Part shown: positions 10,672 through 27,530 of the stretch, one piece after another
Position numbering within the stretch: position 1 is the first letter of the stretch
Layout: the number at the start of each line of letters is the position of its first letter
Assembly (NCBI GenBank): GCA_016223145.1
Contig: JACRPN010000011.1
Location: 248,001-312,000 of the forward strand
DNA length: 64,000 bases
Origin: Armatimonadota bacterium
Lineage (GTDB): Bacteria > Armatimonadota > Fimbriimonadia > Fimbriimonadales > Fimbriimonadaceae
Direction: 5' to 3'
Translations under genes and position numbers: made by a program
The notes under the pieces: generated by a model
Told to the model about the DNA's origin: nothing
The model's input: only the letters and a program-made list of their open reading frames with translations
The model's database searches: none

Positions 10672-10848
10672 ATGGCCCTACCTCTTCCCAACGGCGAGGA
10701 CGTGAAGGCTTTCCAGGACTTGTACAAAGCGAAGTTCTCTTTAGAATTGTCTAGCGAAGAAGCCTATGAGGTGGCTAGAAAGGTAATTGGAATCGTATAT
10801 GTCCAACGAAGATATCCGGTACTTCCTCTATGCAAGGAAGAGCTCTGA
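10672..10848 (+). CDS. Small protein upstream of serine recombinase 1
   Basis: A 58-aa protein (MALPLPNGEDVKAFQDLYKA at the start) that overlaps the start of the recombinase gene by 50 bases in another frame. It contains the segment LSSEEAYEVARKVIGIVYV. A second small protein before the other recombinase has a similar segment. Such short genes often precede site-specific recombinases in islands; they may be recombination directionality factors or accessory proteins, but that is inference. Confidence 0.6.
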   Translation: MALPLPNGEDVKAFQDLYKAKFSLELSSEEAYEVARKVIGIVYVQRRYPVLPLCKEEL

Positions 10849-12454
10849 AGGTGAGGACAGGCAGATCCAGAGCATCCCTGACCAGGTTTCCATCTTCACG
10901 CGCATCGCTGAGAAAGAGAAGCTGATTCTTGTTGACGTGCTCACGGAGTCCAAGTCCGCTAAGACACCTGACAACCGGGACGTCTTTGCGTCGATGGTTA
11001 GGCGCATCGAAGCTGGGGAAGCTAACGGCATCCTAACCTGGAACGCCAACCGGCTCTTTCGCAACCCTGTCGATGGCGGCAAGATCCGCTGGCTGCTCCA
11101 AGAGGGCATCATCCAATCGATCCGGACCATTGACCGGGAGTTCAGGCCGAGTGACAACTCCCTGCTCCTAGCTGTTGAGGAAGCAAGCGCCACTCAACAG
11201 GTCCGGGAACTCAGCGTCAACGTCCGCCGCGGCCTTCACGAGAAAGCCGCCAGGGGTTGCTGGCCGACTCAGGCCAAGCCCGGATACCGAAACGCTATCC
11301 GGATCGTCGAGGGCAAGGAGATTCGGAGCATCGAGCCTGATCCTGAGCGATTCGCCCTGCTCAGAAAAGCCTGGGACCTGATGCTCACCGGGGCCTACTC
11401 AGTGCCCCAGGTTTTGGCCGAACTGAACGGCTGGGGCTATCGCTCATTGCCAACACGCGGGGGCGGCGGGTGCAAGCCTATGACTAGGTCGGCGATCTAT
11501 CGGCTCTTTGACAGTCCGTTCTATTCCGGGAGGTTCTTCTATGGCGGCGATTGGCGCACCGGCACCTACAAGCCGATGATCACCCAGGACGAGTTCAACC
11601 GTGTCCAGGATCTTATCAAGGGCACGAACCGGATTCCTCGCCAGAAACAGCGCTTCGCCTACACTGGCCTCATTCGCTGTGGCGTCTGTGGTTGCCAGAT
11701 CACCGCTGAAAGGAAGGTCAAGCACTACTGGACCACCGGCCGAACCGTCGAATACGTCTACTATCGTTGCACTGGCAGGCGGGGCTGTCCGCTCAGAAGC
11801 GTTTCGGAGGAGTACCTGACGCGGCGCATCTTCGGCTTGCTCAGCACCTGGCGCATCGACGACGATGCCAGAACCCTCGCTGAACGGGCGATCGAGCGGG
11901 AAGAACAAGCCAGTTACGTCTCGGCCGGAACAGTCCGGCAGACAAAGGAAGCGACCAGGCAAGACTTAGAGCGGCGGCTCAACTCCTTGTACGTCATGCG
12001 GGAGAATGAGGAGATCTCTTCCGAGGAGTTCGTTCAGAGAAAGAAACGGTACGCGGATGAACTCGGCAGCATCGATCAAGCTATCGCCCGGACAGGCGAC
12101 CTGGGGGCCAACAATGCCCGTGCCGTTCGTCAGGCCGTCCAGTACCTGAACGACGCGCCGCCCAAGTTCCCGAACGCGTCGCTTGACGAAAAACGCGAGA
12201 TCGCTTCGGTTCTCGCGGCCTCCTACGTTCTCACTCTGGGAAAGTTCTCGATCAGGCCAGACCCAACATTGCTCAAAGTGGCGACGTTAGAACCCCTCAA
12301 AACGGGTTCTCATCAGGTTGGAGGAAGTGGTTCAGACCCCGAAAGTCCCAGTCAGCGGAGAGGGTGGGACGCTATTAGAAGCCTGTTGACAGGTTCGGAG
12401 CTTAGTTTCGAGTATCGAACAACCCGGACCTTCGCTGGTGAGGAGGCCGCATGA
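10799..12454 (+). CDS. Large serine recombinase 1
   Basis: About 551 aa in family order: resolvase catalytic domain (nucleophile Ser15 in YARKS), recombinase DNA-binding domain (about 145-275), zinc ribbon (Cys294, 297, 299, 324, 330), a coiled coil (about 365-420) and a Ser/Gly-rich tail. Such enzymes catalyse strand exchange between att sites through a 5'-phosphoserine link. The start is the ATG at 10799; an upstream TTG at 10787 would add four residues. It may be the integrase of a nested or earlier element, since a second one lies at the tRNA end. Confidence 0.92.
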   Translation: MSNEDIRYFLYARKSSEGEDRQIQSIPDQVSIFTRIAEKEKLILVDVLTESKSAKTPDNRDVFASMVRRIEAGEANGILTWNANRLFRNPVDGGKIRWLLQEGIIQSIRTIDREFRPSDNSLLLAVEEASATQQVRELSVNVRRGLHEKAARGCWPTQAKPGYRNAIRIVEGKEIRSIEPDPERFALLRKAWDLMLTGAYSVPQVLAELNGWGYRSLPTRGGGGCKPMTRSAIYRLFDSPFYSGRFFYGGDWRTGTYKPMITQDEFNRVQDLIKGTNRIPRQKQRFAYTGLIRCGVCGCQITAERKVKHYWTTGRTVEYVYYRCTGRRGCPLRSVSEEYLTRRIFGLLSTWRIDDDARTLAERAIEREEQASYVSAGTVRQTKEATRQDLERRLNSLYVMRENEEISSEEFVQRKKRYADELGSIDQAIARTGDLGANNARAVRQAVQYLNDAPPKFPNASLDEKREIASVLAASYVLTLGKFSIRPDPTLLKVATLEPLKTGSHQVGGSGSDPESPSQRRGWDAIRSLLTGSELSFEYRTTRTFAGEEAA

Positions 12455-13248: not shown

Positions 13249-13965
13249 ATGGCAAAAGCGAAGAACATGAGCAAACCGCCCCGAGACCCACGCCGCCAGG
13301 AAGAAAGTCGACCTACGCCTGCACCTGATCAAGATCCGGGTGCAGATTCGGAAGGGACCCAAGCACTGGATATTTCGCTACTTGAAGTCTTGGGACCAAA
13401 ACAGAAGGGATCTCGGAAGAGACTCAGGGCTCTTAAGCCTACGGTGGCCGTGATCATGGGCAGCTCAAGTGACCTTGGCATCATGGAAGCAGCTACGTCG
13501 ATCTTGGAGCGCTTTGACGTGCCGTACGACACTGAGATCATCAGCGCCCACAGGACGCCAACACGAGTGCTTGAGTTCGCTTCTACCGCGCGAGAAAATG
13601 GTTTCAGGGTGATCATTGCTGGGGCGGGCGGCGCTGCACATCTCCCCGGCATGGTGGCTGCACACACGACACTTCCTGTCATTGGGGTCCCCGTACCAAC
13701 CCGCAATCTAGGCGGTCAAGATTCCCTATACTCGATCGTACAAATGCCGGCCGGCGTTCCAGTTGCAACGGTCTCGATCGGCGGTGCTGAGAATGCGGCA
13801 ATTCTCGCGCTCCAAATTTTAAGCACCTCCAATAAGCGAATTGCAGACAAGCTAAGGACTTTTAAGGAACAACTGGTAAACAAAGTGTGGAAGATGAATG
13901 AGGACCTTAAGGCGCAACGCGAAGGTCGCTCGGATCCAGATAGTGGTTCACAGAAAGCGATATAA
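13249..13965 (+). CDS. PurE-like N5-CAIR mutase with N-terminal extension, active-site residues present
   Basis: A 238-aa protein. A disordered, Pro/Arg/Asp-rich extension of about 65 residues precedes a full PurE fold: [28 protein letters not shown], the [11 protein letters not shown] strand and the [14 protein letters not shown] segment. The catalytic residues of class I PurE are all there, so it could interconvert N5-CAIR and CAIR. Its place in a mobile island beside a degenerate paralogue, and the extension, argue for a role other than housekeeping purine synthesis. The next gene starts five bases after its stop. Confidence 0.85.
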
Positions 13966-13969
13966 TACC

Positions 13970-14416
13970 GTGTCGCCAAATGCAAGAGTTGGAATCGTCA
14001 CCTGCTATGAAGGTGACTTTGCGCACATGAGTCCTGCGATCGATCTTCTCGACAAGTTTGAAGTGTCGTTCGAGATCGTTGCCATCGATCCGATTGGAGT
14101 TCCTGAACGGGCTACTCAGTACGCTGAGTCAGCTCGTGAACGAGGATTGAAGTTTATATTGGCTGGTACCGGCGATGCCCCGAATCTGCCGCTGATCCTC
14201 GCGAGCCATACGACCTTGCCAGTTCTCGGTGTGCCCTTGCCTTGCCACTTCATAGAAAGCGGTAACCCTTCTTACTCGATGGTCCCGAGTTCTAGTCGCG
14301 CTCCAGTTGCGTCAGTCTCCTCCGGCGATGCCCATAGCGCAGCGCTTGTAGCGCTAAGAGCTCTTGCTATTGAGGATGAGGAGCTTAGCGCGAAGTTAGA
14401 CGAGCTTCACGACTGA
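13970..14416 (+). CDS. Degenerate PurE paralogue (predicted pseudoenzyme)
   Basis: About 148 aa from GTG 13970. The PurE scaffold is kept (ASHTTLPVLGVPLP, then SYSMVPSSSRAPVASVSSG and the C-terminal helix), but each catalytic motif is changed: GSxSD is CYEGD, SAHRTP is IDPIGVP, and the AHLPG histidine is lost (DAPNLPL). It forms an operon with the intact copy. It may form mixed octamers with it or bind a nucleotide without catalysis; both are inference. An upstream start inside purE 1 is rejected as overlapping. Confidence 0.75.
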   Translation: MSPNARVGIVTCYEGDFAHMSPAIDLLDKFEVSFEIVAIDPIGVPERATQYAESARERGLKFILAGTGDAPNLPLILASHTTLPVLGVPLPCHFIESGNPSYSMVPSSSRAPVASVSSGDAHSAALVALRALAIEDEELSAKLDELHD

Positions 14417-15376
14417 CAAGAGCAGACACGAATTCGCAGAGGAATTCGTCCCATCAACCCTAGGCACATGGCTCGGGGAGGTTGTGCCGATAGCGACTGA
14501 AAAGCTATTGGTCTGCCCCTGGTCTGCCCCCATTCCTGAAGACAACTTAGGAATAGTCCTCCGTTGATATTGACACGGCGTAGCCCGACCGGAGTCTGCA
14601 ATCCGCGTCCCGACGGTCCAGGACATGGCGGCCACTGCCGGAGGCAGGTAGGCAAGCGACGAATGCGGCCTTTGCTCGTTGTAGAACCGGCGAAACACCG
14701 CCAGCTTCACCTGAGCCTCGGCCAGGTTGTGAAACACTTCGACGTCCAGAAGTTCCGCCCGAAGCCTGGAAACGAAGCTCTCGGCATGGCCGTTCTGCCA
14801 GGGCGAGCCCGGTTTGATGAAGCGGCTCTCGGTCCCCGACTGCGACAGAAACACGGCAAGGCTCCTCGAGATGAACTCCGAGCCGTTGTCGCTTCTTAAG
14901 AACTTCGGAGCGCCGCGGCTTTCGAACAGAGCCTTCAGCACGGACTGCACCCTCAAGGATTTGAAGCTCGTCGCCACCTCAAGAGCAAGGCACTCCCTCG
15001 TGAACTCGTCGACGATCCCCAGAGCCTTGAGCTTGGTTCCGTTCAGGCAGGCATCGAAACAAAAGTCCAGGCACCAGACCTCGTTGGGAGCTTCGGGGGC
15101 CAAGGGAACCTGACTGCCGGTCCGCTTCTTGCGATACCGCTTCATCCTGCCCAGCCTTTCTTCCTTCCAGATCCGGTGGACCCTCTTGACGTTCAGAGGC
15201 TCGAACTGGCCCTTCACGAAGGCGTGGGCCATCCGGTACCCCATGTTCGGCCGCCAGACCTTCTTCAGGGCTTCTCTGAGCTCTGTGCAGCGGTCAGGCG
15301 CCGGCTCTCGGTACGGCCCAGCGCTCGATATCCCCACAATCCGGCAGGCTCTTCGGGCCGTCACACCCCGCTCCAT
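14396..15376 (-). CDS. IS3-family transposase OrfB (DDE integrase)
   Basis: Catalytic DDE residues are Asp104 (CLDF), Asp163 (RSDNGSEF) and Glu199 (NGHAESF). The rve-type domain is followed by the YNEQRPHSSL motif typical of IS3 OrfB. Its ATG overlaps the OrfA stop (TGATG). The frame runs through the left inverted end at 14520 and stops 124 bases beyond it, so about 40 C-terminal residues come from flanking DNA and overlap the end of the purE paralogue on the other strand. Confidence 0.93.
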   Translation of the reverse strand: MERGVTARRACRIVGISSAGPYREPAPDRCTELREALKKVWRPNMGYRMAHAFVKGQFEPLNVKRVHRIWKEERLGRMKRYRKKRTGSQVPLAPEAPNEVWCLDFCFDACLNGTKLKALGIVDEFTRECLALEVATSFKSLRVQSVLKALFESRGAPKFLRSDNGSEFISRSLAVFLSQSGTESRFIKPGSPWQNGHAESFVSRLRAELLDVEVFHNLAEAQVKLAVFRRFYNEQRPHSSLAYLPPAVAAMSWTVGTRIADSGRATPCQYQRRTIPKLSSGMGADQGQTNSFSVAIGTTSPSHVPRVDGTNSSANSCLLLSVVKLV

Positions 15377-15743
15377 CAGAAACCTCGCTCCCGCGACGGG
15401 TTCGGGAGCGCGAGCCCGTTTTTTCGGAACAGCGCCTTCACCGCGTCGATCTCAAGATCCCGCTCGGCCAGCAGCTTCTTGAGCTGGGCGTTCTCCTTCT
15501 CCAGGTCTCTGAGCTGGCGTAGGTCGTCGGTCTGGAGCCCCGCGTACTTGCGCTTCCAGATGTAGAAGGTGTTGACGCTCACCCCGTGGTCCTTGCAGAT
15601 CTGAGCCTGCGTCTTTTGGCCGGAGCTGGCCTCTTGCAAGATCCGAACGATCTGCTCCTCGCTGAATTTCGACTTCCTCATGGTTCCTCCCAAGGGCCGG
15701 GAGGACTACTCTTTCAGCGTCTTCCGATTTGGGGGGCAGCCCA
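14520..15743 (-). mobile_element. IS3-family insertion sequence
   Basis: A 1.22-kb element with two transposase frames and imperfect inverted ends: 14520-14562 reads TGGTCTGCCCCC inward and 15743-15700 reads TGGGCTGCCCCC inward on the other strand. Both arms share GAAGAC and end in TAGTCCTCC. No clear target duplication was seen (CCCC against GGGC). It lies between the purE-like pair and the RHS locus. Confidence 0.85.
15376..15681 (-). CDS. IS3-family transposase OrfA (helix-turn-helix)
   Basis: About 101 aa. It starts MRKSKFSEEQIVRILQEA and has a helix-turn-helix (AQICKDHGVSVNTFYIWKRK) followed by a leucine-rich coiled coil (LRDLEKENAQLKKLLAERDLE), as in IS3 OrfA. It binds the element's ends and pairs with OrfB. 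Confidence 0.92.
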   Translation of the reverse strand: MRKSKFSEEQIVRILQEASSGQKTQAQICKDHGVSVNTFYIWKRKYAGLQTDDLRQLRDLEKENAQLKKLLAERDLEIDAVKALFRKNGLALPNPSRERGF

Positions 15744-15832: not shown

Positions 15833-16708
15833 CTATGTTCTGCCTGGTCGGTCAGCCAACAATCTCAGGATGCCAGCCTTCTTGCCTTCCGGACCCGAAG
15901 CGATCTCTACATAGTCCGCTGGTGTAGAACCATTTAGATCGCGTGCCTTTATGTCTGAACCCAATCTGACTAGGGCTCTTATGGCGTCGCCGTCAAGATT
16001 CCTACAAGCAAGCATCAACGGAGTGACTAACTGCCAGTTCCTAACATCAGGAGTTCCTGATCGCTCCAATACAAACCGAACACACGGTCCCACGAACCGC
16101 CAATTCGGCGAGAGACCACCTCCTCGTACTAGCTCATGGGCAATCGTATTTCCCTCGCTATCCCTCACTAGGGTAGCGGCACCGAATCTGGCAAGCATGC
16201 GAACTACTGACACGGACCCACGACCGTACCACAACGGAGTCAAACCATCTACGTCAACAGCGTCAACTACCGCCCCACGCTGTAGCAGGAGTGATAGCGC
16301 ACTGCAATTCCCTGACAGAGCCGCATAGTGCAAGGGAGTCCGACCCTCGACGTCCGCACATTTGGAGTCGGCACCACAATCAAGGAGCACTTGCATCTGC
16401 TCAGTTGTGCCATGCCAACTTGCAAAGTGAAGCGCCGTCAATCCGTTGCAATCCTGAATCCCAACTTGAGTCTTGTTCAAAAACTGTGAGAGGATGCGTA
16501 ACTGTGTAGCCTTCTTTGAGCCTAACACTGCCAAATGAACAAGAGTGTGGCCATCTGTGTCCTGCTGAGAAAGTACTTTGCGGTTCGATTCAATGGCACG
16601 AACCAGCCGGTCCTTCTCCCAATTAACCATAGAGCTCAATTGAGCATCGACACCTAACGTTGCTTGACCAGCAGCGCAAAGAACGAGACTTAGCAACATC
16701 AATGACAT
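15833..16708 (-). CDS. Secreted ankyrin-repeat protein, partner of RHS tip 2
   Basis: A 291-aa protein with a signal peptide (MSLMLLSLVLCAAGQATLG) and about six ankyrin repeats from residue 50 on, with DGHTLVHLAVLG, NGLTALHFASWHG and GRTPLHYAALSG as the clearest. It begins three bases after the stop of RHS tip 2. Ankyrin proteins next to polymorphic toxins often act as immunity proteins, so a periplasmic immunity role is proposed by context only. Confidence 0.75.
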   Translation of the reverse strand: MSLMLLSLVLCAAGQATLGVDAQLSSMVNWEKDRLVRAIESNRKVLSQQDTDGHTLVHLAVLGSKKATQLRILSQFLNKTQVGIQDCNGLTALHFASWHGTTEQMQVLLDCGADSKCADVEGRTPLHYAALSGNCSALSLLLQRGAVVDAVDVDGLTPLWYGRGSVSVVRMLARFGAATLVRDSEGNTIAHELVRGGGLSPNWRFVGPCVRFVLERSGTPDVRNWQLVTPLMLACRNLDGDAIRALVRLGSDIKARDLNGSTPADYVEIASGPEGKKAGILRLLADRPGRT

Positions 16709-16711
16709 TTG

Positions 16712-17704
16712 TCAACTCCAAGGATCAGTATCGGGGCATTCATTGCCAGGCTTTGATGTCCACTTGAATCTTTTGAACGGATCCGGATAATTCCAGCTAG
16801 CTAGTACTATCTTGCCCTTGGCAGTCTGACAACAGGAGTAGCCAATGTTGTACCATCGCACCTGCTTACCTTCGTTCAATGTAACTCCCGACCGCTTAAT
16901 CAAAGTTCCATTCTGGTCATCGTATTGAAATCCGTGCTCCCTAGGCTTGAACCCACGATAATACGCAACTCTAGACTTCCACTCAAAGTGGGCAAATGTG
17001 CAGTCTGCTCGACCGTCATATCTCCAAGCATCTATAGGGGCAGGATATGGATGAGGGTCCTCCTTAGGGGGAACATATCTTCTGCCAGTAAACTCCCATG
17101 CCTCCCAGAACTCGTCATCCATCTTTACAATTAGATCTGGGTTCGTATCATCACAAACTCTCGACTGCTTGTGCATTGGTCGACATTTGCAAACTCGAAT
17201 CGATACTTTCAAGTGCTGCACGATAGCGCCAGGGCCAGAGTATTTGCCGTCTGTCGGAAGCTTCCAGTAGAGAGACCACTCAACTCCTCCACATTGGAAT
17301 CCGTCTTCCTTATGGTCCGTGGCCCAGACTTCTTCCGGACTTGGTCCTTGCCCCATGGGCCCAATTGGATTTCCCATAGCCATTGTGCGCGAATACGGCG
17401 ATAAAGGAGCTAGCATAACGCCTGCGGTTTGAGAATAGGTCCGGGACTGCCACCAAGATAGCTGAAACGGCGTGGTCCTTACCTGATTGCAACCGTTCCA
17501 TTGAAATGTAGGATCGGGTCCATTGCCGGTCTTCGCGATTCGCCCGCCATATGGCTTGTAACGGTAAGTATTTTCCACAGCTTGTGCCTGGTCGACGGTA
17601 GCGGTGACAGATCCCAAGGAGTCGCTCAGATAATCCGTAAATGAGCCTCCAGTCTCTTGACCGGTGATCACTCCATCCTCAGTGAAGTAGTTCGTTGTGG
17701 CCAT
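16712..17704 (-). CDS. Orphan RHS tip module 2
   Basis: A 330-aa protein. Residues 1-53 match the conserved end of RHS proteins (NYFTEDGVITGQETGG, DSLGSVTATVDQ, YRYKPYGG). The rest is a variable, cysteine-rich domain (CKCRPMHKQSRVC; SCCQTAKGK; a WYNIGYSCC stretch) with no family I recognise. The ATG overlaps a TAA (TAATG). It has no full RHS core before it, only a short decayed core fragment at about 17,700-17,800, so it is an orphan cassette of the kind that can recombine into a complete RHS gene. Confidence 0.75.
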   Translation of the reverse strand: MATTNYFTEDGVITGQETGGSFTDYLSDSLGSVTATVDQAQAVENTYRYKPYGGRIAKTGNGPDPTFQWNGCNQVRTTPFQLSWWQSRTYSQTAGVMLAPLSPYSRTMAMGNPIGPMGQGPSPEEVWATDHKEDGFQCGGVEWSLYWKLPTDGKYSGPGAIVQHLKVSIRVCKCRPMHKQSRVCDDTNPDLIVKMDDEFWEAWEFTGRRYVPPKEDPHPYPAPIDAWRYDGRADCTFAHFEWKSRVAYYRGFKPREHGFQYDDQNGTLIKRSGVTLNEGKQVRWYNIGYSCCQTAKGKIVLASWNYPDPFKRFKWTSKPGNECPDTDPWS

Positions 17705-17707
17705 TAG

Positions 17708-17800
17708 GCTTTTCCCGGCAAGCAGTCCTCACCATCCCAAACCTGCCTCGTATGTAGCATCACCCGGTACCCTCACCCGCGTCTTGCCGTCGGCGTTGTA
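17708..17800 (-). pseudogene. Decayed copy of the RHS core end
   Basis: This stretch aligns with the end of the RHS core gene: YNADGKTRVRV matches YDGDGKKRVEL in reading, and GTTTGGGATGGTGAGGACT matches GTTTGGGATGGCGAGGACT in bases. It sits exactly where the core ends in the full locus, just before tip 2, and carries stop codons. It is the left-over homology expected of displaced RHS cassettes. Confidence 0.6.
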
Positions 17801-18653
17801 CTAATAGCTCACAAACAGGCCGTTGATTGCTCTTAGCACCTGCGCTTCGTGTCACCGCCAAACCACGAGGTTGTTGACAGTCGAGAACACACTGCCACCA
17901 ATCGAACTTGCCATAGCTTTTGGCGAGCATCTGCCTGTAACGAGCCTCAGCACGCATATCACCTTCTTCAGCGGCACGTTGTGTTAACCACACAAGAGCT
18001 CGCATCGACGGTAAGGTTTGTCGCATCTGGAATAGCTCGAAGACTCTCTCGACCTCTCTCTTACGTAGAGCGACTGGACTTGCCAACGCGTATAGGTACC
18101 TCAGATAACCGTAACAGCGATCAGACTGGGAACTCTCTTTTTGGAACTCTGCTGACGCTAATGCGCGCGCGCAAGCAAGTCTTGAAGACCGCAAGAGATC
18201 CTCCGTCTGCGCATTACTCTCTCCGGAGGCTGATAAAGCCCCTACGACCCTTGATTGACTGTAATAGGTGAGTGCGACTCCTAACTTAGTCCATTTGGAC
18301 CAGTTCTCGCTCCACTGTTGTCTTCCGGATAGAAGTTCGTTGATCGGAGTGTATTTTGTTGCAGTTAGCAACTCCGTAGCATAAGCCATAGCCTCGGTCG
18401 TGTTGAAGGCAAAAGCGACCGGGTTCCTGTGAGGAATGGTGTCCACGAGCACATCGACCCAGATAAACCGGAATGGGACATTACCTGAGTGTCCGGGATA
18501 GCGTACAAGTGGAGTCCTGTCAGGTGCGTTGGTGCCCCCTGTTTGCAGCTTGCTGGTAAGTCGCGATTGAACATACAGAGCGCACTTTGAGTGAGAGGCC
18601 GAATCACGGCAAGGGGAGTGGACCAAGATCGTCAGCAACACGATAGCAATCAT
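17760..18653 (-). CDS. Secreted protein of unknown family, partner of RHS tip 1
   Basis: A 297-aa protein with a signal-peptide-like N-terminus (MIAIVLLTILVHSPC). The body is helical, with paired motifs such as ALVWLTQRAAEEGDMRAEARYRQMLAKSYG that look like Sel1/TPR-type helices. It begins nine bases after tip 1 stops. Its last 20 or so residues (from CELLVQRRRQ) are an out-of-frame reading of RHS core sequence, so the true C-terminus has been replaced by recombination. An immunity or accessory role for tip 1 is inferred from position. Confidence 0.6.
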   Translation of the reverse strand: MIAIVLLTILVHSPCRDSASHSKCALYVQSRLTSKLQTGGTNAPDRTPLVRYPGHSGNVPFRFIWVDVLVDTIPHRNPVAFAFNTTEAMAYATELLTATKYTPINELLSGRQQWSENWSKWTKLGVALTYYSQSRVVGALSASGESNAQTEDLLRSSRLACARALASAEFQKESSQSDRCYGYLRYLYALASPVALRKREVERVFELFQMRQTLPSMRALVWLTQRAAEEGDMRAEARYRQMLAKSYGKFDWWQCVLDCQQPRGLAVTRSAGAKSNQRPVCELLVQRRRQDAGEGTG

Positions 18654-18662
18654 GATACAATG

Positions 18663-19619
18663 TTACCTAATGTTGGTTTTACACTTTCCCTGTTCGTCAA
18701 TGATTAGCGACCAATGCCAGGAAGTGCAGGAAGCTTTGGAGGCAGGTGGAGAGTTAGGCTCTGGACCACAATGGCAGCAAGTCGTAATAGTATGATCAAT
18801 GCCAATCTTACCAATGCCGGGTTCAAATAGCACGAAACCTACAGTAGCGCGCTGAAAAGTCGTAGCGCAGTCCAGGGGCACCACTTTGGGAAATGAGTAG
18901 TAGCCCAGGCAGTCTAGGCCCCGCCAATGGAAGTGATAGCCATCGTCTAAACGTCTAGGTGATTTATTGTCCTCTATGTTTGACAATAGGCAGGGCGTTG
19001 CTTGATCCCCATCAGAATGGTCCAGATAATAGTCTATTCTTCCCTTCTGCATATCCACACCGACGAAATTTGTGAATTCGGTTCCAGATAGCCACTGTGG
19101 TATTGACATTGGGCAACTGGAATCTTCACAAGTGAAATCACAATCAAACCAAAGCTCTGCTGCGCAGAGAATCTCGAGGCCGTGCTTCTTAGGTGAATAC
19201 TCAGTTTTTTCACGCTTCTCTCCGATCTTGATCTTAGGCTTGCTAGATACACACGCGCGCTGTCTCGATGAGGTGGGGTTAGTCTCTGTTGGAGTGGTTG
19301 GAGCTTGATGGGATCTAGTCAGGATGCTATCTTCAAACACGAAATACACCTGCTGCCGTCTTCTGTACACGGCTTTCGAGTGTAGGCCAGCGGCGTCGAG
19401 TATTTGGTTTTGCCAGCGAATCCTGGGCTCATCACCAACTCCTGAACTGCTGAGGGTTGCGCCGTAGGGCTTATACCGATAAGTATTGACGACGGTCTGG
19501 TTTTGGTCGACTGTCGCTGTCACTGAACCCAAGGCATCGGTTAAGAAGTCCGAGGACGTTCCTCCGGTCTCTTGGCCGGTGATGACTCCGTCTTCGGTGA
19601 AGTAGTTCGCGGTCGGCAC
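18663..19619 (-). CDS. RHS tip module 1, encoded separately from the core
   Basis: A 318-aa protein starting at a GTG directly after the TAA of the RHS core, in the same frame. Residues 1-53 are the conserved RHS end (NYFTEDGVITGQETGG, DALGSVTATVDQ, YRYKPYG) and nearly match tip 2. The remaining 265 residues differ completely from tip 2 and are cysteine-rich (LWFDCDFTCEDSSCP; TTCCHCGP). This fits a polymorphic C-terminal effector or surface domain. No catalytic motif was recognised. Confidence 0.75.
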   Translation of the reverse strand: MPTANYFTEDGVITGQETGGTSSDFLTDALGSVTATVDQNQTVVNTYRYKPYGATLSSSGVGDEPRIRWQNQILDAAGLHSKAVYRRRQQVYFVFEDSILTRSHQAPTTPTETNPTSSRQRACVSSKPKIKIGEKREKTEYSPKKHGLEILCAAELWFDCDFTCEDSSCPMSIPQWLSGTEFTNFVGVDMQKGRIDYYLDHSDGDQATPCLLSNIEDNKSPRRLDDGYHFHWRGLDCLGYYSFPKVVPLDCATTFQRATVGFVLFEPGIGKIGIDHTITTCCHCGPEPNSPPASKASCTSWHWSLIIDEQGKCKTNIR

Positions 19620-22600
19620 TTACGAGCGCTCCTGTACGTAGTCCTCGCCATCCCAAACGAGCGTTGTCCTTACGCCTCCGGTCAGCTCCACGCGCTTCTT
19701 GCCGTCGCCATCGTAGAGATACGTCACGACGCTCGAGCCGTTGTAGAGTCTGAGTCTGTTTTCCATATCATACGACATCGTTGTTCGGTCTCCGTTTGGG
19801 TCTTGGACTTCAGTCAGGTTCCCGTTGGCGCTGTAAGTATAGGTGGTCTTGTTGGCTCCGTTCACCATCGAGACCATTCGGTTGCCGGCATCATAGCTCC
19901 AAGTGGATACCGATCCCGTCTCCGAGGATGTGAGGCGGTTGTCGGACCCGTCGTACGAGTAGTCGTAGGTGTGGGCGTTGGTTCCGGCCGTGGCATCCTG
20001 GGTCAACCGGTTCTTGGCATCGTACGAATAGGTCGTCGAGGCGCCGTTGGCATCGAAGATGGACTTGCGATTGCTAGCCTCGTCGTAGGTGAAGGTGAAT
20101 CTCTGCAGGACCGCGCCTCCGCTTGTCTCGTCGATAATCGAGACGATCTGATTGGCGGCGTCATACGTGGTTCGCTTCTTGACGGCAGAGGCAAGGAGAA
20201 CCGTGGTCTTCCTGCCGGCTGCGTCGTACTGATACGTTGACTTGGACCCGTTTGGCCTCGATGCGGTCTCCAGCCTGCCGTCATCATCGTACGTGAATGT
20301 TCGGACGCCGTTGTCGGGATCGGTCAGCTTCGTCCTTTGGCCGACAGCGTCGTAGGAATAGGCTTGCCTGAGCGTCCCTGGGTCGGTCTTGCCGGACACG
20401 CGGTTCACGGCGTCATAAGCATAGGTCGTGTCGCCGGTCGAATCCTGCATGGTCGTCCGGTTACCGACAGCGTCATAGGCATAGGTGACCTTGGTTGCGT
20501 CTGCATAGTCGATGCCCGTGGCACGGCTAACGGCATCGTATGTATAGGTTGTCAGGTCTCCGGAAGGGAACTTGCGGGTGGAGCGCCTGCCAACCGCGTC
20601 GTACGTGTAGGTGGTCCGGTTACCGAGTTGGTCGACAATGGCGGAGAGCTCACTTCGATTCGTATAGACCTGCGTGATGAAGTTGCCGCGGGCGTCTACG
20701 ATCGTGGTGTTCCGGCCGTCCGCGTCGTATTGGGACGTCGTAACAAATCCCAACTGGTCCATCGTACTGACCAGACGATTGACGGCATCAAAGCTGTTCG
20801 TCACTCTGTTTCCACGGGCATCCAGGACCCCAGTTTGGTTGCCGACGGCGTCATAAGAGAAGGTGGTTCGGTAGCCGAGCGGGTTGACGACGGCCTGGAC
20901 TCTGCCGGCGTCATCGTAGACGGTCGTGGATGTGTTGCCAAGTGGATCGACGTTGGCCGTCTGTCTTCCTACAGCATCGTAGACATAGCTGGAGAGGTTG
21001 CCTAGCGGGGTGGTCGTGGTCACCGTTCGTCCCACGGCGTCGTAACCGGTCTTCCACATCTTGCCGAGGGCGTTCGTCATCGACACCTGGCGCCCTGTAG
21101 CGTCATAGCCGTAGGTCGTGAAGTTTCCGAGCGCATCTTGAACCGCCTGCGTTCTCCCGGCATTGTCAAAGATGTAGGAGATGCGGTTGCCCTTGGCATC
21201 CTGAACCGCAGTCTGCTGGCCGGCTGCGTCGTAGACATAGCTCGTCCGGTTCGCAAGGGCATCGACCGAAGCCGCGAGCCGGTTTGAATCCGAACTGAAG
21301 ACGCTTGTTGAGATGTTGCCGAGCGCATCTGTGACCGTGGTTCTGTTCCCAGCGGCATCGTACAGATAAGTCGTCAGGTTGCTTAGCGGGTCCAAGCTTG
21401 CCGAGACCTGGCCAGCCGCGTCATAGACCGTCGTCGAGCGAAAGCCGAGAGGGGTAGCCTGGGCCGTTTGTCTGCCCACGGCGTCGTAGAAGTAGTTGGA
21501 CGTATTTCCAAGTGCATCGATCGAGGACACCACGTCGTTCCTGGCATTGTAGACCGTGGTGCTGATATTGCCTCTGGCATCCTTGACCGTCTGCATCCGG
21601 CCGCTGGAGTCGTAGGTGTAACTGGTCCGGTTGCCAAGCTCATCCACGTCGGCGGTCTTCTGTTTGGCCGCGTTCATCACGATCTGCCGCGACTTGCCTA
21701 GGGCGTTGGTGACCGTGGTCAAGTAGCCCATGTTGTCGTATTCGTAGGTCGTAACGTTGCCAAGGGCGTCCTTCACCGTGGAGCGATTGCCGAACCGGTC
21801 ATAGGTGTAACTGGTGCGGTTGCCGAGAGGATCCACCTCTGCAGCCAGCAGGCAGGTGTCATAGACATAGGTCCAGCGGTTGCCCAAAGGATCGATCATC
21901 GCCGTCCGGTTGTCACCGTCGTCATAGATGTAGGTGGTCTTCCTCCCAAGAGGATCGGTCGTGGTTTCCAGCCGATTCAGGCTGTCGTAAGTGTTGGTGA
22001 CGATCCCGCCGTCCGAGTGGATGATCGAGGCGACGTTGCCAGAGGAATCGTAGTTGTAGGTGGTTCGAAGGCCACGGCCGTCAACCGATGCCGTGTTCTG
22101 GCCGTCGCCGTCGTAAACCCACTGGGTCACCCGGCCGAGGGGATCGGTTGCCCGAATGCGGTTTCGGCTTCCGTCATAGCCGAAGGTGCTCGTGTTGCCA
22201 AGCGCATCGATCTGTGTGGTCAGGTTTCCTGAGGAGTCGTACTGATAGGTCGTCAGGTTGCCGAGGGCGTCAGTCGACTTTGTGACGCGGCCCATGTAAT
22301 CAAAGGCATGGCTGCACACCGTGCCGGCCGGGACCTCTTCCTTCGTCTGAAAGCCGTTGGAATCGTAGCTGTAGGTGGAAGTGTAGCCTTCCGGATGCTG
22401 GATCTTGGAGATCCGGCCATTGGAGTCGATGACGTTTGTCGTTCGGGCTCCAGTCGGGGAGATAGCGACCGAACCGTTGTACGTGGCCGGGAAGGCGCCG
22501 CCGTACTGATACGTCCAGATTCCGGAACCGGCTGCCATCGAGGTGACTCTACGGTTCGAGTCGTACATGTAGGTCGTCCGGTAGCCGCGGGGATCCTCGA

Positions 22601-25991: not shown

Positions 25992-27530
25992 ATGTCGTAC
26001 GGTCGCCGCTCAGCCAAAAGGACCATCCTGGTCCAAGAATCCCCCAAGGCCGGGACGGCAGTCCTTTACGCCCGGGTCTCGACTAAAGAGCAGGAACAGG
26101 AGGGGTATTCGCTCCAAGCACAACTTGGCCTCCTGCGCCGCTATGCCCAGCAACACGGTCTGGAAGTCAAATGCGAGTTCATCGAAGCCGAGACGGCCAA
26201 GGAAGCTGGCCGGGAGAGATTCCAGGTGATGCTCGCGTTCGTCCGAGCTAAGGGCGTTGGGGCCATCCTCTGCGAGAAGGTTGACCGTCTGTACCGCAAT
26301 CTCAAAGACAGGGTCCTGGTTGGCGATCTTGCTGTTGAGCTTCACTTCGTCAAAGAAGGGACCGTCCTTTCGAAGGCCTCCAAGAGCCACGAGAAGTTCG
26401 TCCACGACATCAAACTGGTGGTGGCCAAGAACTACATCGACAACCTTTCGGAGGAGACAAGGAAGGGGATGGAAGAGAAGGCCAAACAGGGCCTCTGGCC
26501 ATCTCACGCTCCATTTGGCTACGTCAACGTCATCGTCGGCTCTAGGCGCGTGATCGAGGTCGACAAAAAGCTCGCCGTCAAGATCCGCCGCTTGTTCCAG
26601 ACCTATGCGGAGGGGCAGGCGTCCTTAGCAAACCTTCGGGTGCTGGCCCGTGATATCGGTCTACGGTCCCGCAAGGGAAACGTCTTGCAGACCAGCATGA
26701 TAGCCCAGATTCTCTCCAACCCGATCTACAGCGGTCAAATACTCTGGAACGGGGTCCAAAACGACGGGACGCACGAGCCGATCGTCTCGAAAGAACTATT
26801 CGAGAAGGTTCAGGAAGTAATGCACGGCCGGAACCGTAACAAGACCGGTTTCGGGAAGCTTGACTTCACCTACAAAGGCGTCTTCACCTGTTCTCACTGC
26901 GGCTGCGCCATCACGGCAGAGAGACACAAAGGCAAATACGTCTACTACCACTGCACAGGCAAGAAGGGCCGATGCCCTGGGCAGAAGTGTATCGAAGAAA
27001 ACGTTGTCAGCGCCCAAGTCTCCAATCTTCTCAGACGCCTGCATATCGATGCGGAGATATTGGAAATGCTCCGGGACGCGCTGCAGGAGAGTTTTGAGGA
27101 ACAGCGTGCCTTTCACGACGATCAGCGAGAATCGCTGGGAAACGAAGCTAAGAGCATAGAAGGCAAGTTGGAGGCACTGTATCTGGACAAGCTCTCTGGC
27201 CAAGTCCCGATGGCGATCTTCGACAAACTCAAGCTCAAGTGGGAAAGTGAACTCGATGCTTGTCGGCTCCTCCTCTCAAGTCTCAGCAAGGCTCAAGCTT
27301 CGTATTTCGAGCTCGGCGTGACCCTTCTTGAACTAGGTTCGAACTGCCACTCCAGGTTCGAAAAGGCTACTCCAAAGGAAAAACGAGAGATACTCAGATC
27401 CCTATGTTCGAACTGCCAGTTGGAGAACGGATCGGTGCAACTTTCCTTGCAGGAGCCATTCAAAACGATGCTCCAATCAATCGAAAGTGAAGGCAGCAAC
27501 CGCGAAACTGGGAAATGGCTGGCGGACTAG
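25992..27530 (+). CDS. Large serine recombinase 2, at the tRNA boundary
   Basis: A 512-aa protein with a resolvase domain (nucleophile Ser30 in YARVS), recombinase domain (about 155-280), zinc ribbon (Cys300, 303, 305, 321, 328), coiled coil (about 350-430) and a conserved KEKREILRSLCSNC segment near the end. It is the likely integrase of the island. The last five codons (WLAD and stop) lie in the 3' end of the tRNA-Gln gene on the other strand, which suggests that the attachment site lies there. Confidence 0.92.
   Translation: MSYGRRSAKRTILVQESPKAGTAVLYARVSTKEQEQEGYSLQAQLGLLRRYAQQHGLEVKCEFIEAETAKEAGRERFQVMLAFVRAKGVGAILCEKVDRLYRNLKDRVLVGDLAVELHFVKEGTVLSKASKSHEKFVHDIKLVVAKNYIDNLSEETRKGMEEKAKQGLWPSHAPFGYVNVIVGSRRVIEVDKKLAVKIRRLFQTYAEGQASLANLRVLARDIGLRSRKGNVLQTSMIAQILSNPIYSGQILWNGVQNDGTHEPIVSKELFEKVQEVMHGRNRNKTGFGKLDFTYKGVFTCSHCGCAITAERHKGKYVYYHCTGKKGRCPGQKCIEENVVSAQVSNLLRRLHIDAEILEMLRDALQESFEEQRAFHDDQRESLGNEAKSIEGKLEALYLDKLSGQVPMAIFDKLKLKWESELDACRLLLSSLSKAQASYFELGVTLLELGSNCHSRFEKATPKEKREILRSLCSNCQLENGSVQLSLQEPFKTMLQSIESEGSNRETGKWLAD

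Follow-up and report, generated by a model that had tools for sequence, protein, structure and literature searches.

Rhs tips encoded as separate genes in Fimbriimonadia: a likely two-chain polymorphic toxin with exchangeable lid-plus-toxin subunits

Introduction

Rhs toxins, arrays of Rhs tips, and the division of the Tc toxin shell into a B and a C chain are known, and the switching of Rhs toxins known so far is based on recombination. Tc toxins build their Rhs shell from two polypeptides, of which the C chain comprises an aspartyl autoprotease and a variable toxin (PMC11067744). Several TcC chains, such as the exchangeable or orphan YenC1-3, can share one TcB, and the loading of YenB by orphan YenC3 is a precedent for loading in trans (PMC11067744). 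Here, we describe an Rhs locus in a 64,000-nt stretch of the genome of an Armatimonadota bacterium of the class Fimbriimonadia (contig JACRPN010000011.1, positions 248,001 to 312,000 of the forward strand; hereafter, the window), in which the core and two successive tips are encoded by separate genes. The locus and its relatives probably encode an Rhs polymorphic toxin made of two chains, in which the lid-plus-toxin subunits are translated separately and can be exchanged, with immunity in the envelope.

The tips of this class differ from TcC in that the small chain comprises only lid and toxin, TcC holding ∼580 more shell residues upstream of the tip-equivalent part, and in that a partner, exported in most cases, lies next to each pair. 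With the Rhs loci of Enterobacteriaceae, the class has in common a core with variable tips, core-end remnants within arrays, AT-richer tips, and adjacent putative immunity genes. However, the tip that immediately follows the core is here a gene of its own, with a start codon and mostly a ribosome-binding site, whereas the enterobacterial loci have a fused active tip, and the displaced tips of Serratia were reported to be devoid of start sites (PMC2935791). The Rhs effectors of the type VI secretion system (T6SS; RhsA, Tse5, and Tse15) have a shell that matches the core, a lid with the catalytic Asp pair, and a toxin expected to lie inside; unlike these, the proteins of the class appear as two chains, in which no PAAR, N-terminal plug, or clade domain was seen.

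Results

Core and tip are mostly separated at the same place across the class

In the window, the core ends in VWDGEDYVQERS-TAA, and the GTG of tip 1 is the very next codon, in frame with the core (TCG-TAA-GTG). Tip 2 starts at TAATG, the TAA of which closes a decayed copy of the last ∼40 core codons interrupted by a frameshift and stops. The initial annotation, which had noted a TAA directly before both tips, was correct as to the triplets (TAAGTG and TAATG), but the one before tip 2 terminates a remnant and not a working core.

The genome set comprised 113 genomes of the class of the window genome (the order-level set was identical); ∼80 loci were retrieved and their junctions sorted by profile searches. 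Tips were present in 62 of the 113 genomes. At 72 of 75 distinct split junctions, the tip started between −1 and +6 nt from the core stop, TAATG or TGATG being the commonest arrangement. The start codons at the first 61 junctions were ATG (54) or GTG (7), and a Shine-Dalgarno 4-mer at suitable spacing was found at 48 of these, compared with a background of 9.9% and with 3 of 16 fused homologues. Core open reading frames (ORFs) traced independently from the N-terminus fell mostly into two size groups, ∼1070-1340 and ∼1350-1600 residues. The same junction in 75 distinct places means that the split in the window is not due to chance, and rules out a sequencing error or a lone nonsense mutation as its cause.

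Core and tip could nevertheless end up as one chain if the stop were read through or circumvented by programmed frameshifting, a notion that fits the single in-frame TAA between core and tip in the window and the in-frame relation at 14 of the 75 junctions. However, all three frame relations (33/28/14, the last being in frame) and all three stop codons occur, the junctions carry start codons and Shine-Dalgarno motifs, and no shared slippery site was apparent at them by eye. As no single frameshift or readthrough mechanism is compatible with this distribution of frames, joining by either was ruled out on the basis of the three frame relations and three stop codons, and we regard this explanation as barely credible.

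The split, which the initial annotation had presumed to be conserved, recurs at the 75 junctions and in ∼28 full-length cores of the class, but conservation is not strict, since some cores, a minority (eight full-length ones), are fused to their tip and the two forms interconvert: a tree built from core end and lid start contains at least six switches between split and fused. Other phyla form one group on this tree, and at their 42 loci the junction lacked a stop in the main match. This interconversion suggests that both forms probably work.

The Rhs lid and autoprotease form the start of the tip

A profile built from 43 tips matched the final ∼110 residues of the shell in structurally characterised Rhs and Tc proteins, namely YenC2 (residues 582-693, profile positions 23-132), TcdB2-TccC3, and the T6SS Rhs protein 8qja. 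On the latter, the core aligned up to residue 1725 and the tip from 1754 to 1879, that is, as successive parts of one Rhs protein. The shell is thus not divided at the boundary between TcB and TcC; as the tip corresponds to residues 582-693 of YenC2 only, the class divides the shell ∼580 residues further downstream than Tc toxins do. The corresponding region of RhsA is an aspartyl protease that forms the lid closing the cocoon and releases the toxin (PMC8765631).

TIGR03696, the Rhs lid/autoprotease domain, was found in 39 of the 43 tips. Window tip 1, in which no more than the first ∼66 residues remain, did not match it. The catalytic Asp pair (D...DPxG), counted with a looser pattern because a stricter one missed many true cases, was present in 112 of 118 tips of the class; both window tips are among the six exceptions. 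Of the features characteristic of Rhs/YD-repeat toxins, RHS repeats and a lid domain ahead of the variable C-terminus are present, whereas core and toxin in one polypeptide were found neither in the window nor at the 75 junctions, but only in the eight full-length fused proteins. Judged from its genes, the class makes shell and lid-plus-toxin as two chains.

Toxin parts are rich in cysteine and accompanied by partner genes

The toxin parts had a median cysteine content of 7.7%, the figure for control genes being 1.27%. The 95th percentile of the controls was exceeded by 114 of 116 toxin parts, and the lid itself contained no cysteine at the median. An HExxH zinc-peptidase motif was present in 24 of 116 tips (e.g., at loci L119, L116, and L134), with 0.42 expected by shuffling, and the secreted phospholipase A2 (PLA2) motif CxxHDxC in five (e.g., L139:2108-2971(-) and L142), with 0.11 expected. 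Weak Pfam matches of toxin parts included Tlde1 (two), PLA2, and M35.

Behind 115 of 125 tips, a further gene followed at −25 to +60 nt. Partners carried an N-terminal hydrophobic stretch in 85 of 118 cases, compared with 41 of 168 control genes, a crude measure of export made without a signal-peptide predictor. Of 6328 toxin pairs, 52 were similar, and these included all nine similar partner pairs (p = 8e-20, related pairs not being independent). Adjacency, export, and co-variation together are the pattern expected of cognate immunity proteins outside the cytoplasm, and this is how the partners, presumed to be such, should look. The initial annotation had proposed periplasmic partners and, as a check, a look at whether partners follow the tips and co-vary with them in related genomes; partners did both, a periplasmic location fits the hydrophobic N-termini, and the suggestion of an RHS system with exchangeable tips and possible toxin-immunity pairs is consistent with the junction, adjacency, and co-variation data.

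Tips also occur in arrays and as standalone genes

The genome from which the window stems contained 10 tip matches in all, none of them fused to a core. Four form an array on contig 6, and two are standalone tips with start sites of their own. A second full core, on contig 16, is split as TAATCATG; its tip reaches the end of the contig, and a near copy of the tip start lies at one end of contig 3. Lid starts of array neighbours had a median identity of 93.5%, compared with 27.8% between tips of different loci, and the toxin parts of array neighbours were mostly unrelated. A need for each lid to match its particular core would explain such similar lids on unrelated toxins; shared lid starts would equally arise from duplication or gene conversion.

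Such arrays also recall those of Enterobacteriaceae, and the stop might simply inactivate a once-fused protein, the downstream tips being displaced orphans that persist as silent leftovers or as a recombination reservoir. Core-end remnants in the arrays, the AT-richer tips, the decayed remnant ahead of window tip 2, and the fused cores within the class would all agree with this, as would genome G015 (99% complete), in which six tips were found but nothing that matched RHS repeats at E 1e-5. However, ∼28 full-length cores are split at one place and followed by an ATG or GTG, usually with a Shine-Dalgarno motif; standalone tips of the class also have starts, which the Serratia fragments lack (PMC2935791); and the catalytic pair has been retained by 112 of 118 tips. 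We therefore consider an origin as displaced orphans unlikely.

Alternatively, pairs of tip and partner could act without a core, either as modules for addiction or stress or as a store of immunity genes. The standalone pairs with own start sites far from cores, the tips of G015, and the reported action of Salmonella orphan Rhs toxins as toxin-antitoxin modules (PMC7043789) point in this direction. But a retained Rhs lid and autoprotease make sense only with a shell, and cysteine-rich toxins with exported partners fit the envelope better than the cytoplasm, which makes core-free action of the pairs highly improbable. Nevertheless, G015 indicates that tips can persist without a recognisable core. 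As some genomes have tips and no detected core, many standalone tips may not be delivered, and part of the tip arrays may represent reservoirs, stored immunity, or decay.

Companion genes precede the core

A gene resembling NifU_N/IscU (PF01592; motifs PG[DE]GPY and LPEGK) preceded 34 of 38 distinct core N-termini on the same strand, 575-1144 nt upstream. All 38 NifU-like matches preceded a core or, twice, a standalone tip, the search covering the retrieved loci and not whole genomes; there was none at the 42 retrieved loci of other phyla. IscU/NifU scaffolds for iron-sulphur clusters bind the cluster by three cysteines, and the companion does not retain this set: nearly all of the 38 have another residue in place of the first (PG[DE]GPY), the second is present in most, and the third position differs among them. 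With these changes, the protein is unlikely to be an ordinary scaffold.

The NifU-like gene is separated from the core by a small ORF rich in Gly, Pro, Ser, and Cys, which precedes nearly every core of the class. The likeness of these ORFs consists in composition, position, and a GxCxxG..LPxP..CP pattern, a strong alignment being absent. At four loci (L119, L120, L195, and L197), the small ORF is joined to a Hint/intein-like C-terminal part. In relatives, both companion genes form part of the Rhs operon. The window core is preceded by the small ORF, the NifU-like gene being absent. Roles as adaptor or chaperone (NifU-like protein) and as cap (Gly/Cys-rich protein) are guesses.

The window locus

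The genes of the window locus, all on the minus strand between 15833 and 23668, follow each other in the direction of transcription as listed in Table 1.

Table 1. Features of the Rhs locus in the window, and examples of NifU-like genes at related loci.
Feature	Coordinates	Strand	Remarks
Gly/Ser/Cys-rich small ORF, 85 aa	23411..23668	-	directly upstream of Rhs core; GxCxxG..LPxP..CP pattern
Rhs core, 1247 aa	19620..23363	-	27 RHS repeats; C-terminal end LVWDGEDYVQERS, then TAA
Core/tip 1 stop-start junction	19605..19640	-	CAGGAGCGCTCG-TAA-GTG; GGAG 9 nt 5' of GTG
Tip 1, 318 aa	18663..19619	-	Rhs lid start domain (YFTEDG...YKPYG), then unique Cys-rich part; without catalytic Asp pair
Partner 1 (P0004), 297 aa	17760..18653	-	hydrophobic N-terminus; putative exported immunity protein
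Decayed core-end remnant	17705..17830	-	..YNADGKTRVRV..VWDGEDCLPGKA*; ends in TAATG
Tip 2, 330 aa	16712..17704	-	tip 1-type start domain; unrelated Cys-rich C-terminal part; without catalytic Asp pair
Partner 2 (P0005), 291 aa	15833..16708	-	signal-peptide-like N-terminus and ankyrin repeats; putative immunity protein
NifU-like genes (examples)	L144:~2035; L149:~5152; L184:~5863	-; +; +	35 more matches

In a Pfam scan, the core matched PF05593 in 27 stretches (E 4.9e-153), with RHS repeats as the only match; no signal peptide, PAAR, N-terminal plug, or clade domain was seen in it. The two tips, which had been described as sharing their first 53 residues before differing completely, do diverge, but only 41 of the 53 residues match (77%), and a weak likeness extends to about residue 69. 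The same scan gave no match of the tips above the cut-off, and structure prediction without an alignment yielded unusable models (mean predicted local distance difference test scores of 33 and 39). As initially annotated, a putatively secreted partner starts within ten bases of each tip, 9 nt (P0004) and 3 nt (P0005) past the tip stop codons, and both have hydrophobic N-termini. The GC content is 57-60% in the core and ∼47-54% in tips and partners, a contrast familiar from Rhs loci. Partner 1 overlaps the core-end remnant with its last ∼25 codons (17760-17830), which are read in a different frame; the original gene end thus appears to have given way to a recombination junction. Tip 1 and partner 1, directly behind the core, are most likely the pair of the window that is expressed with it.

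Just past partner 2 lie two overlapping transposase-like ORFs in an IS3-type arrangement (14396-15693 (-)); similar pieces also occur near tips on contigs 6 and 13 (L012 and L013). Two large serine-recombinase-like ORFs are located on both sides of the Rhs region (10787-12454 (+) and 25992-27530 (+)) and possibly mark mobile DNA. Two adjacent PurE-like ORFs of 238 and 172 aa occupy 13249-14416 (+), the second resembling a diverged partial copy of the first.

Discussion

In the two-chain system proposed here, the core gene would provide most of the Rhs shell, minus its last strands, and the next gene, translated by stop-start coupling, would provide a tip chain consisting of the last shell strands, the aspartyl-autoprotease lid, and the toxin. 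The tip chain would join the core non-covalently and close the shell around the toxin, in analogy to TcC joining TcB. Any tip with a matching lid could then load one core, including standalone tips in trans; the toxins would exert their effect in the envelope or periplasm of competing cells, the partners being the immunity proteins. The split and its conservation, the coupled start, the identity of the lid, the cysteine-rich toxins, and the co-varying, mostly exported partners can be read from the sequences, and assembly in trans is what we infer from them. A more specific version is put forward tentatively, namely that a lid-less core is expressed together with two further proteins, one an adaptor or chaperone of degenerate IscU-like type and the other Gly/Cys-rich and cap-like, the tips being supplied in trans and the toxins being disulphide-rich hydrolases that attack the envelope.

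Several observations weigh against the two-chain interpretation. Cores fused to their tip occur, and the fused and split forms have changed into each other, so that a covalent link probably works as well. In some genomes that are almost complete, G015 among them, tips were present and no core N-terminus was detected. Neither signal peptides nor PAAR were seen as export signals on the cores, and the gene for the T6SS sheath (TssC/VipB, PF05943) was found in none of 41 genomes, including that of the window. Relatives of both window toxins and of partner 1 were not found among the 113 genomes. The autoprotease residues have been lost in both window tips, which are therefore atypical and may not release the toxin normally; they may be decaying, or release may proceed in another way.

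New compared with the described systems are the position of the split, the class-wide stop-start coupling, the standalone tips that look expressed, the cysteine-rich repertoire with its mostly exported partners, and the NifU-like companion. Literature searches, in which subscription journals were thinly covered, returned nothing on split Rhs tips, Rhs proteins of Armatimonadota, or a link to NifU.

If tips load in trans, one expressed shell could carry several toxins at once, without rearrangement of genes. The split would then mark off the minimal part needed to close and arm an Rhs shell, and offer a natural cut point for studies of assembly and cargo loading. The class would also be a source of uncharacterised toxins acting on the envelope and of exported immunity proteins, and its NifU/IscU-like companion would represent an unexpected role for the fold of an iron-sulphur scaffold.

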